This document shows positions 38,921 through 47,028 of a stretch of DNA of 47,123 nucleotides, piece by piece. Origin of the DNA: Gemmataceae bacterium. GTDB lineage: Bacteria; Planctomycetota; Planctomycetia; Gemmatales; Gemmataceae. The notes beneath the pieces were generated by a model. That model was not told where the DNA came from, did not search any database, and saw only the letters and a list, made by a program, of their open reading frames with translations. Position 1 is the stretch's first letter. The number at the start of each line of letters is the position of its first letter. The position numbers and the translations under genes are program-made. Location: NCBI GenBank assembly GCA_009692005.1, contig SHZZ01000027.1:1-47123 (forward strand), given 5' to 3'.

Positions 38921-40336
38921 GTGATGTTTAATCGAAGAAAATTCCTGGAATCGGCTTCCTGCGGCTTTGGTCACCTGGCCTTGCTCGGTTTGGCTGGAGG
39001 TCAGGCCAGGGCCGCCGCGCTCGACCCTTTGGCCCCCAAAGCCGGGCCCTTTCCCGCCAAGGCCAAGCGGATCATTTTCCTCTTTATGCAGGGCGGGCCC
39101 AGCCATGTCGATTCCTTTGATTACAAACCGAAGCTCGATCAACTTGACGGGCAGATGCTGGATTTTCGCGACGCCCGTGTTCTGGCGAAAACCGGCTCGG
39201 TGGTGAAACACCGGGTCATGAAGTCTCTTTGGAAGTTCAAACAATACGGTCAGTCGGGGAAATGGGCCTCAACCCTTTTCCCGCAAATTTCCAGCCACGC
39301 CGACGATTTGTGCTTCCTCCATGGCATGCGAACAGAAGGCGTTGCACACGGCCCGGCAACCCTGTTCCTGCACACCGGGTCGATCAACCTCATTCGGCCT
39401 TCCATGGGATCCTGGGTCTCCTACGGCCTGGGGACTGAAAACCGAAATCTACCCGGCTTTGTCACTCTTAGCCCTTCCATGGGCAACGGCGGGCCGAGGA
39501 ATTACAGCAACGCTTTTCTGCCGGCGGTGTACCAGGGCACGGCGGTCGGCCGCGCCGGCATTGCCGCCAAGGAATCGACCATCCGAAATCTGAGCAATCC
39601 CAAGTCATCAATCCCTGATCAAAAGAGGTACCTGGAATTCCTGGCCATGCTCAATGCCGGCCAGGCAGCCAAAAACCCAGGAGACAAAGAATACGAGGCG
39701 GTGCTAAACTCGTATGAATTGGGCTGGCGCATGCAGAACTTCGCGCCGGAAACTCTCGACCTTTCACGGGAAAATAAAACCACGCTGGAAGAATATGGCG
39801 TGGGCCAGTCGGCCACGGATAACTACGGCCGTTTGTGCCTCACGGCCCGCAGAATGGCGGAAGCCGGGGTGCGCTACATTCAAGTGAACTACGGCGATAA
39901 CACCAACAACCCCGCCTGGGACCAGCATTCCAACTTGCCAAAACATGCCGATCATGCCAAAGCGGTTGATCAACCAGTGGCAGCGCTCCTGGGGGATTTG
40001 AAACGCCGCGGCTTGCTGGAAGACACCCTGGTATGGTTCGGCGGCGAGTTTGGCCGAACCCCCTATTCAGAAAAGAATGGCACTGGCCGCGATCACAATC
40101 CGGGTGGCTTTACGGTTTGGCTGGCGGGGGGCGGGGTGAAGCCCGCTTTCTCCTATGGCGCCACCGACGAGTTTGGTTTTAGCGCCGTCGATGGCTGCGT
40201 TCACATGCACGACTTACACGCCACTATTCTTCATCTCATGGGACTGAACCACGAGAAATTGACTTTCAAATTAGATGGGCGCGACTTCCGTCTGACCGAT
40301 GTTCATGGGCAAGTGGTCAAAGAAATCATGGCCTAA
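38921..40336 (+). CDS. DUF1501 protein paired with the DUF1549/1553 gene
   Basis: 471 residues. A Tat-like NRRKFLESASCGFGHLALLGLAGG N-terminus leads a DUF1501 body with FLFMQGGPSHVDSFDYKP, TLVWFGGEFGRTPY and GRDHNPGGFTVWLAGGGVK. GTG 38921 and ATG 38924 are adjacent possible starts. Alkaline-phosphatase/sulfatase-like fold; activity unknown. DUF1549/1553 plus DUF1501 is a standard planctomycete gene pair and is presumed to act on the same exported substrate. Confidence 0.88.
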   Translation: MMFNRRKFLESASCGFGHLALLGLAGGQARAAALDPLAPKAGPFPAKAKRIIFLFMQGGPSHVDSFDYKPKLDQLDGQMLDFRDARVLAKTGSVVKHRVMKSLWKFKQYGQSGKWASTLFPQISSHADDLCFLHGMRTEGVAHGPATLFLHTGSINLIRPSMGSWVSYGLGTENRNLPGFVTLSPSMGNGGPRNYSNAFLPAVYQGTAVGRAGIAAKESTIRNLSNPKSSIPDQKRYLEFLAMLNAGQAAKNPGDKEYEAVLNSYELGWRMQNFAPETLDLSRENKTTLEEYGVGQSATDNYGRLCLTARRMAEAGVRYIQVNYGDNTNNPAWDQHSNLPKHADHAKAVDQPVAALLGDLKRRGLLEDTLVWFGGEFGRTPYSEKNGTGRDHNPGGFTVWLAGGGVKPAFSYGATDEFGFSAVDGCVHMHDLHATILHLMGLNHEKLTFKLDGRDFRLTDVHGQVVKEIMA

Positions 40337-45211: not shown

Positions 45212-45772
45212 TCACCGCTTGGCTTCGTCAACCCGTTTTCGAACCAGCTCCCATTCCCCTGCCACTCCGAGCTTATCCGCCCAGGCGTTGATGTAGGCCC
45301 GATCCAGTTTGTCGCCTAGCAGCTTCATCATCCCGCCGATGTCGCGCAAGTGCTTATCGCCCGCGCCTCCACTGAGTCGATAGTAGACTAGCTTGTTTAG
45401 CAGCACATCTTCCGGCGAACCGAACCAGGCTGAATACTCCCCCTCGTTTGTGATCCGCTTGATCCGGGTCGCTTCGGAACGAGCAAACTCGGTGTCGGGC
45501 GGCACGATCACATCGACTTTCAATCCCGACGCGGGGTGCAAAATATTGAATTGAAAGCGCCACGCCACCGCCTCCCGGGCTGCCGGCTCTGAGAGGTAAT
45601 ACTCGGGCGCAGGAAACGCCGCGCACAAGGACGCGACATTGGCCAGGGTCAACTCGGCGACCATATCCACATCATTGGTAAAACGCGGCTCACCGTAGGC
45701 CATGCTGGCCATCGAGCCGACCACGCGATAGGCAACCCCCTGCGCCTCGAAGAAATCGGCCAGGCGCTGCAT
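45212..45772 (-). CDS. Nucleotidyltransferase-fold protein (MNT/AbiEii-like or DUF6036-like)
   Basis: 186 residues from ATG 45772; a TTG immediately before it (45775) is an alternative. The core has GSMAS (19-23) and NDVDMV with D34 and D36, the GS-x-DxD pattern of nucleotidyltransferases, and a third acidic residue candidate in LKVDVIVP. A DUF6036/AbiEii-like helical C-terminus with EDVLLNKLVYYRLSGGAGDKHLRDI follows. Such proteins occur both as toxin-like enzymes and as housekeeping-like orphans. Two tiny genes lie directly upstream on the same strand. Confidence 0.7.
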   Translation of the reverse strand: MQRLADFFEAQGVAYRVVGSMASMAYGEPRFTNDVDMVAELTLANVASLCAAFPAPEYYLSEPAAREAVAWRFQFNILHPASGLKVDVIVPPDTEFARSEATRIKRITNEGEYSAWFGSPEDVLLNKLVYYRLSGGAGDKHLRDIGGMMKLLGDKLDRAYINAWADKLGVAGEWELVRKRVDEAKR

Positions 45773-45800
45773 CAACTCATGCGGTTGCAGTTCTGATGAA

Positions 45801-46022
45801 TTAATAATTCACCACCCCATGACTGATGCGCCGGGCGATTTCTCGGTTGACCTGTTCGCTGTTCCAGTCGGGGTGTTCTGTGCGAATGGCCCCGCGCAGG
45901 ATCACCCGGGCCGACTTCCACATCTGCCCGGCGATCCGCAGCCGCTCCACTTCGGTCTTTTGCCGCAGAATATCCGCCATGGCATCGTCCATCACTTCGA
46001 AAACCGGTTCAGGTGAGTTCAT
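45801..46022 (-). CDS. 73-residue helical protein next to the nucleotidyltransferase
   Basis: ATG 46022 to TAA, all alpha-helical by residue pattern, with EVMDDAMADILRQKTEVERLRIAGQMW in the first half and ILRGAIRTEHPDWNSEQVNREIARRISHG after it. I recall similar short proteins adjacent to nucleotidyltransferase genes, but no function is known to me. It ends 28 bp before the nucleotidyltransferase start. Antitoxin or cofactor role is only inferred from the layout. Confidence 0.6.
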   Translation of the reverse strand: MNSPEPVFEVMDDAMADILRQKTEVERLRIAGQMWKSARVILRGAIRTEHPDWNSEQVNREIARRISHGVVNY

Positions 46023-46164: not shown

Positions 46165-46202
46165 TTAAGAAAGAAGCCGCCCGCGAAAACTCGCGAGCGG
46201 CT
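46165..46202 (-). terminator. Rho-independent terminator downstream of the tRNA/tmRNA fragment
   Basis: Read on the minus strand: a 12-bp stem with one G-U pair (AGCCGCTCGCGA at 46202-46191 with TCGCGGGCGGCT at 46186-46175), loop GTTT, then TCTTTCTT. Its position, a few bases past the 3' end of the tRNA-like fragment, matches the native terminator of a stable-RNA gene. Confidence 0.7.
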
Positions 46203-46207
46203 TTAAG

Positions 46208-46229
46208 TGGAGGCGGCGGGAATCGAACC
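46208..46229 (-). other. 3'-terminal fragment of a tRNA or tmRNA gene (att-site-like)
   Basis: On the minus strand the sequence reads GGTTCGATTCCCGCC followed by GCCTCCA: the T-loop TTCGATT, the 3' side of the T-stem and the 3' acceptor strand with an A discriminator (no CCA encoded within the visible end). The bases 5' of it do not pair as a T-stem, and no GGAGGC-type 5' acceptor lies within the next 100 bp, so only the fragment is here. This is what a tyrosine integrase leaves at one end of an element inserted into a tRNA/tmRNA 3' end. Which RNA it came from is not settled; tmRNA and tRNA-Tyr-like ends both look similar. Confidence 0.55.
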
Positions 46230-46380
46230 TATCCGTATTTCCCGGGAAAAACTGATGTTTTGAACATAGGCGGCACAGAATCCGGCACAGTGGCAAGGTT
46301 TCCGGCAGCATAGAGAGGCCTTTCAAAGGATTTATCAAAAGCGATCCTGACCATTGTACGGGGTGGCGAACTGGCGGCGC

Positions 46381-46401
46381 AGTTCGCAGTTCGCAATTCG
46401 C
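46381..46401 (+). repeat. Three tandem 7-bp repeats, left side of an A/T core
   Basis: AGTTCGC, AGTTCGC and AATTCGC follow one another without gap. The reverse complement of the unit (GCGAACT) recurs at 46516-46529 and 46576-46597 on the other side of the A/T core. Confidence 0.7.
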
Positions 46402-46456
46402 AGGCGGGGTAAACCCCATTAGAGAATGGGGTAGTTGGGTACAGCGGAGCCTTGGC

Positions 46457-46506
46457 TATTATATATAATAAATATAATAATTATCTTTAATAATTATATA
46501 TAATAC
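46457..46506 (+). repeat. Almost pure A/T core with internal palindromes
   Basis: Fifty bases contain a single C near the middle (46485). The palindrome ATTATATATAAT occurs twice (46458-46469 and 46493-46504), and TAATAATTAT is directly repeated (46475-46484 and 46488-46497). Such easily melted cores are found at replication origins and at some recombination or transcription control sites. Confidence 0.7.
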
Positions 46507-46515
46507 CTAGGAACT

Positions 46516-46597
46516 GCGAACTGCGAAGTCCTAGACTCTCCCAGGCAGATTACCCAATTTAACTGAGTAGAGTCTGCGAACTGCGAACAGGCGAAGT
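46516..46597 (+). repeat. Inverted 7-bp repeat units, right side of the A/T core
   Basis: GCGAACT/GCGAAGT at 46516-46529, then after 46 bp GCGAACT, GCGAACA and GCGAAGT at 46576-46597. They are inverted relative to the AGTTCGC array at 46381-46401. Further outside, CGGAGCCTTGGC at 46445-46456 is an exact inverted copy of GCCAAGGCTCCG at 46639-46650. Confidence 0.6.
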
Positions 46598-46702
46598 CCG
46601 GCGTTGCCTCCTCCGGGCGAAACCAAGGCTCTGCCGCTGCCAAGGCTCCGGCAAGCGGGGCGGCCTCCAGCGACCGAAACGGGGCAGAAGCGAGATCGGA
46701 GA

Positions 46703-46939
46703 TTACCCGGGGAATGTGTGTAGCTCGTACCCATCGGCGCCTCTTCGAATCACGCGCCTGGCCAAGAGGTTGGGCAACAACACACTGAGCCTGTACGACT
46801 TAGGACAGCCGCTCAACTCCTGTTTGATTGCCGCCGCCTTGGCTGGACCGCGTTCAAGAATTTCCAGGATTTCCTGTTCGGCGGGTGAGAACGGCAACCA
46901 CCAGGCGGGTTGCAAGACCTTTGGTTTTGACTGGTTCAT
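46703..46939 (-). CDS. Small winged-helix-type DNA-binding protein
   Basis: 78 residues from ATG 46939, preceded by AGGAGGTC with 3 nt spacing, a strong site. The chain FSPAEQEILEILERGPAKAAAIKQEL followed by YRLSVLLPNLLARRVIRRGADGYEL has the pattern of a winged helix: helix, turn, recognition helix, then a beta-wing. Probably a regulator of the element to which it belongs. It is preceded by A-tracts and faces the repeat region. Confidence 0.6.
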   Translation of the reverse strand: MNQSKPKVLQPAWWLPFSPAEQEILEILERGPAKAAAIKQELSGCPKSYRLSVLLPNLLARRVIRRGADGYELHTFPG

Positions 46940-46980: not shown

Positions 46981-47028
46981 AAAAAAAAATTTAAACAAAA
47001 AAACTGCAAAAAAAAATTGCAAAAAAAA
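46981..47028. promoter_or_regulatory. A-tract region upstream of the winged-helix gene
   Basis: Four A-runs of 7-10 bases are spaced by 12-15 bp between centres (roughly 46985, 47000, 47012, 47024). Near-helical phasing of A-tracts is known to bend DNA. It lies 42-89 bp upstream of the start at 46939. No clear -35/-10 pair is visible, so the promoter is not located exactly. Confidence 0.35.

Follow-up and report, generated by a model that had tools for sequence, protein, structure and literature searches.

Heptanucleotide repeats have been described as the most abundant category of long simple-sequence repeats (LSSR) in most genomes (PMC4679880). Described members of the class include the STRR of cyanobacteria and the TAACTGA repeats of Beggiatoaceae (PMC4679880), and a heptamer repeat similar to the one analyzed here, ATTGCGAATTGCGAATTG, is reported from Nostoc, where it recurs between genes (PMC2408588). 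These repeats form short 7-bp tandem arrays in intergenic or tolerant coding DNA, and their distribution across phyla is patchy. Short repeats also adjoin A/T-rich DNA in the origins of iteron plasmids and phage satellites. In the satellite PLE, the repeat iterons lie in non-coding DNA (PMC7145576).

We analyzed a window of 47,123 nucleotides, which is the whole of one contig (C46) in a genome of 4.19 Mb and 99 contigs. Toward its right end, direct reading of the sequence reveals tandem heptamers at positions 46366-46588, with TTCGCAG on the left opposed by CTGCGAA on the right across a 49-bp A/T core. The arrays share their short 7-bp tandem form with LSSR, but they differ from both LSSR and STRR in being opposed, in enclosing an A/T core, and in occupying a single locus in the genome. 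They resemble PLE iterons and iteron plasmids in that the short repeats adjoin A/T-rich DNA within an integrated element. On balance, we lean toward reading the structure as an inverted pair of heptanucleotide tandem repeats of the LSSR/STRR class that is borne by a genomic island and has no dedicated role in replication.

Structure of the heptamer arrays and the A/T core

The structure comprises the following features, given from left to right:

46366-46373, plus strand: lone GCGAACTG unit in the opposite sense, facing the left array (repeat search)
46378-46403, minus strand: left heptamer array CGCAGTTCGCAGTTCGCAATTCGCAG, 3.7 copies of CGCAGTT (TRF period 7)
46413-46432: perfect 8-bp hairpin ACCCCATT-agag-AATGGGGT, without a T-run (repeat search)
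46457-46505: A/T core in which the 12-bp palindrome ATTATATATAAT occurs twice (starting at 46458 and 46493); the 18-bp arms are 89% complementary
46511-46527, plus strand: right heptamer array 1 GAACTGCGAACTGCGAA, 2.4 copies of GAACTGC (TRF period 7)
46532-46575, ends approximate: short inverted repeat (AGACTCT ... AGAGTCT) separating right arrays 1 and 2 (read directly)
46574-46588, plus strand: right heptamer array 2 CTGCGAACTGCGAA(C), 2.1 copies of CTGCGAA (TRF period 7)

The initial annotation had described AGTTCGC-type units on the left and two groups of GCGAACT-type units on the right, enclosing an A/T stretch of about 50 bp with two copies of one palindrome. Direct reading confirms this description, including the two copies of the palindrome within 49 bp. 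The structure is real at the interval proposed there (46379-46597), although that interval misses the lone opposite copy at 46366-46373. Right array 1 is itself bracketed by CTAGGA and TCCTAG, as read directly. The opposed arms are spaced approximately 112 bp apart, and the first arm pair is 22 nt long and 86% complementary. The units are few, with only three in the left array and two in each of the right arrays.

A mixed-orientation cluster of at least six heptamers occurs once in the window but in none of 40 whole-window dinucleotide shuffles or 2,000 local shuffles; the heptamer structure is not a product of chance. Seven further 20-kb stretches of this genome lack even a looser cluster of at least five heptamers. 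The 13-mer GCGAACTGCGAAC is present in three copies in the 4.19-Mb genome, two at the structure and one within apparent protein-coding DNA. Our statements about this genome are based on pattern and BLAST searches plus the seven sampled stretches, and by these means the tandem array was found at one locus only. The tandem repeat of the 7-nt unit is longer than expected by chance, as in a heptanucleotide simple-sequence repeat (LSSR). If the host genome had a dispersed STRR family, the unit would form short arrays at many loci, as it does in an Acidobacteria genome described below; because the locus in the window is the sole one, we file the structure as a heptanucleotide simple repeat rather than as part of such a family.

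The A/T core is the sole 40-bp run of at least 90% A/T in the 47-kb window, and 140 kb of this genome yielded one more such run. Folded as RNA, positions 46370-46600 reach -90.9 kcal/mol, whereas shuffles average -57.8 kcal/mol (z -7.6). With DNA parameters, the folding of positions 46370-46655 has a z-score of -6.3 against shuffles.

Position within a tmRNA-integrated island

The structure lies close to one end of a genomic island, which is delimited and accompanied in the window by the following features:

46174-46203, minus strand: hairpin and T-run, probable native tmRNA terminator, on the chromosome side beyond the distal attachment site
46202-46229, minus strand: exact 28-bp duplicate of the 3' end of tmRNA, forming the distal attachment site (att) of the island (100% match to C71:29799-29826)
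46256-46307: 52 bp sharing 80% identity with the att flank on the integrase side (C71:29948-29999), with TGTGCC units at 46272-46277 and 46284-46289
46657-46715, minus strand: 59 bp, 100% identical to C74:5812-5870 (L005), beginning at the last codons of the 78-aa open reading frame (ORF)
46703-46939, minus strand: 78-aa ORF, winged-helix-like by eye only, with no family match

The intact tmRNA gene is located on another contig (C71:29430-29823), and the next gene there encodes a tyrosine integrase (Pfam PF00589, E 2.8e-9; PHROG integrase, E 6.9e-30). The duplicated tmRNA 3' end at the two ends, together with the integrase beside the intact gene, identifies a tmRNA-integrated genomic island. 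In several relatives, a hairpin comparable to that at 46174-46203 lies directly 3' of the tmRNA; in the window, the hairpin and T-run are to the left of the tmRNA copy, so the left side is chromosome and the right side is island. This places the heptamer structure approximately 140-360 bp inside the distal att. The C71 end of the island also encodes a MerR/HTH_17 protein, at the contig end, and a 475-aa protein. The latter has weak helicase/primase matches (PHROG, E 4.3e-4), but no Pfam family scored over the cut-off. It may be compared with DUF3987-type proteins. No overlap joining the right ends of C46 and C71 was found, and the middle of the island is unassembled.

Two further claims of the initial annotation hold at this level. 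Its proposed link to a mobile element is borne out by the exact 28-bp duplication of the tmRNA 3' end and by the integrase, helicase/primase-like, and MerR/HTH_17 genes on C71, and the view that the structure is neither a gene nor a simple terminator is supported, as neither is evident there.

Short repeats in both senses at a distance of 140-360 bp from att could be arm-type sites bound by the integrase of the island or by its excision factor, and in a related island (L092) GGTGTCA repeats lie near both att copies. Arm-type sites would be expected to repeat one short sequence on either side of the att core. The heptamer, however, is found on the distal side only, with none on the integrase side, and it is TGTGCC that occurs on both sides of att, with a spacing of 11-12 bp (four copies at +120 to +155 and two at 48 and 60 bp). 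We consider it highly improbable that the heptamers serve as arm sites and disfavor them in this role against the TGTGCC repeats flanking att, which, judging from their placement, are more likely to be the arm sites of the integrase. The 52-bp stretch at 46256-46307 is a candidate for such sites or for a remnant of an integrase 3' end (GTESGTVARFPAA*).

The location of the structure downstream of the small minus-strand ORF, its very stable folding (z -7.6), and promoter-like matches within the A/T core would all suit a hairpin that is transcribed and acts at the island end as a bidirectional terminator, an attenuator, or a small structured RNA. Promoter-like matches are nevertheless expected in A/T-rich DNA, the Rfam scan of the window returned nothing, and no terminator is called in the structure itself. 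In addition, 95 family genomes, phages, and plasmids yielded no homologues for covariation. We give this explanation little credence.

Several minor observations concern the DNA around the island end. No relatives of the 78-aa ORF were found in genome and viral contigs. Just upstream of this ORF, near the contig end, A-tracts recur with a period of approximately 13 bp (46981-47028). The C74 contig that shares the 59-bp stretch carries a sigma-70-like gene and a protein-kinase-like gene, and the shared stretch is not a contig-end overlap. On the chromosome side of att, positions 45212-46022 contain two small genes that may form a toxin-antitoxin pair: an ORF weakly matching nucleotidyltransferases and an antitoxin related to Rv0078B (Pfam PF18993, E 1.2e-11). 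The chromosome is considered planctomycete-like from genes recognized by eye, such as that of a DUF1501-type protein at 38921-40336, and from one relative, G057, which matches a Planctomycetota metagenome-assembled genome.

The same heptamer in other genomes

We found no DNA homologue of the structure region in 95 family genomes, phages, or plasmids. Searching the family genomes with 46360-46720 returned three weak pieces, one of which is the heptamers in a histidine-kinase-like gene, and searching phages and plasmids with 46340-46720 returned chance-level pieces only. The exact same-layout pattern was absent from viral contigs. The heptamer itself does recur: the exact 14-mer CTGCGAACTGCGAA is present in 7 of the 95 family genomes. 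G057 carries the matching 14-mer GTTCGCAGTTCGCA in a single element only, which also has an integrase and a primase/helicase-like gene. In G023 the same heptamer lies inside the histidine-kinase-like gene. Single matches to the 13-mer GCGAACTGCGAAC in relatives are seemingly isolated and mostly coding. The heptamer is shared with related genomes, but the layout with an A/T core is not conserved.

An Acidobacteria metagenome-assembled genome (MAG), PL23a_bin.88 (G111), contains 142 dispersed copies of the 14-mer GTTCGCAGTTCGCA, compared to none of a reversed control. We examined 25 of these sites (loci L191, L193-L196, and L227-L246) and found the heptamer as an inverted pair in six, with arms 44-97 bp apart; five of the six came from a search aimed at paired arrangements, and the frequency among the other sites is 1 of 20. 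The polarity is always GTTCGCA on the left and TGCGAAC on the right, as in the window, and at L191 and L193-L196 the arms are separated by 72-97 bp. These pairs differ from the structure in the window in their dispersal on many contigs, in their cores, which have an ordinary GC content (0.48-0.61) and lack an A/T core, and in their surroundings, which are ordinary chromosomal genes (recJ-like, TPR, and synthetase-like) with no mobile-element link seen. Scattered copies without a link to mobile elements, which the initial annotation regarded as evidence against its reading, exist in the Acidobacteria MAG. The genome of the window, by contrast, has the array at a single locus.

Helicase/primase-like elements and the comparison with replication origins

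Of 102 genomes from the order, 26 contain matches to the 475-aa protein, the genome of the window included. Several of the related elements carry opposed heptamer clusters, each locus with its own heptamer (CGAGCAA in L090, GGAATTA in L098, GGGAGTA in L100, and GTTCGCA in L120). Two separate clusters of one heptamer were present at 4 of 21 loci with a helicase/primase-like gene and at 1 of 39 control loci. The association of heptamer clusters with these elements is suggestive but not clean, because some of the clusters lie within or against coding sequence and because CGAGCAA also occurs outside the element in its genome. A 40-bp core of at least 90% A/T was absent from 18 related helicase/primase-like gene loci, and the A/T core was rejected as a family trait.

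The initial annotation likened the layout to an iteron-type replication origin. If the structure were the origin of the excised island, an initiator would bind the heptamers on both sides and open the A/T core. An A/T-rich opening region is indeed present beside the repeats, at 46457-46505, between opposed arrays, and the island carries an integrase and the 475-aa protein with its weak helicase/primase matches. The confinement of the same heptamer to one primase/helicase-like element in G057, the excess of paired clusters at helicase/primase-like loci over controls, and the iterons of PLE (PMC7145576) are also consistent with this possibility. Against it, the A/T core is missing from the 18 related loci, so the layout is not conserved; clusters of related elements lie in or against coding DNA; no heptamer array is found beside the helicase/primase-like gene on C71; the units number just three, two, and two; and inverted pairs of the same heptamer are chromosomal and lack an A/T core in the Acidobacteria MAG. 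SaPI-type origins are likewise similar in having short repeats beside A/T-rich DNA on an integrated element. The structure nonetheless differs from the origins of phage satellites and iteron plasmids, as its repeats are not next to the helicase/primase-like gene, related elements are without the A/T core, and initiator binding and replication here are hypothetical. Weighing these points, we regard an origin as possible but unlikely. We judge distinctly doubtful the broader idea that opposed clusters of element-specific heptameric iterons serve as origins in some planctomycete islands that have a primase/helicase-like gene, with the window, where an A/T opening region separates the arms, as the clearest form. 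A limited literature search found no description of how these small integrative elements replicate; if the origin reading were true, it would supply a concrete, testable origin for a group of them.

Proposed formation of the inverted pair

Our preference for an inverted pair of simple tandem repeats without a replication role follows from four lines of evidence: the same heptamer in the same polarity is dispersed at ordinary genes of the Acidobacteria MAG; clusters of other heptamers lie in or against coding DNA in related elements, and the same heptamer lies inside the histidine-kinase-like gene of G023; heptanucleotide repeats have been reported elsewhere (PMC2408588, PMC4679880); and the folding z-scores are strongly negative (-7.6 and -6.3). 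The repeats, their polarity, their computed folding potential, their island position, and the occurrence of the same heptamer pair elsewhere are shown by the sequence data. Two findings run counter to this preference: the array is not dispersed in its own genome, where it occupies one locus, and a rare A/T core sits squarely between the arms. Similarly, the confinement to one element in G057 and the paired clusters at 4 of 21 versus 1 of 39 loci hint at a function tied to the element.

Under the simple-repeat reading, short heptamer arrays would probably first arise by copying slippage and may then be duplicated in inverted orientation, for instance through template switching at a hairpin. Arrays in opposite senses would, according to the computed folding, let either strand form one large branched hairpin, with further palindromes nested in and beside the inverted pair in the non-coding distal end of the island. 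The structure would travel with the island and play no part in its replication; at most, it might act as a hairpin boundary that separates the island end from the neighboring small ORF. If so, the window adds a further example of opposed heptanucleotide pairs, which are common to Planctomycetota elements and an Acidobacteria chromosome, and it raises the question of how such pairs arise and spread.

Repeats at other loci

Three further loci have repeats or boundaries of their own. At L092:8260-13996, a stretch of approximately 5.7 kb lies between a tRNA-Arg gene and a 29-bp partial copy of that gene, and the GGTGTCA repeats near both ends of this island are a possible set of integrase arm-type sites. 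An island of approximately 5.3 kb at tRNA-Leu (L098:7470-12828) is bounded by a 59-bp direct repeat. At L103:11357-11547, nine copies of the 23-bp repeat GGCGCGAAATCCGGCGCACCAGC are present at the 3' end of an integrase adjoining tRNA-Trp.
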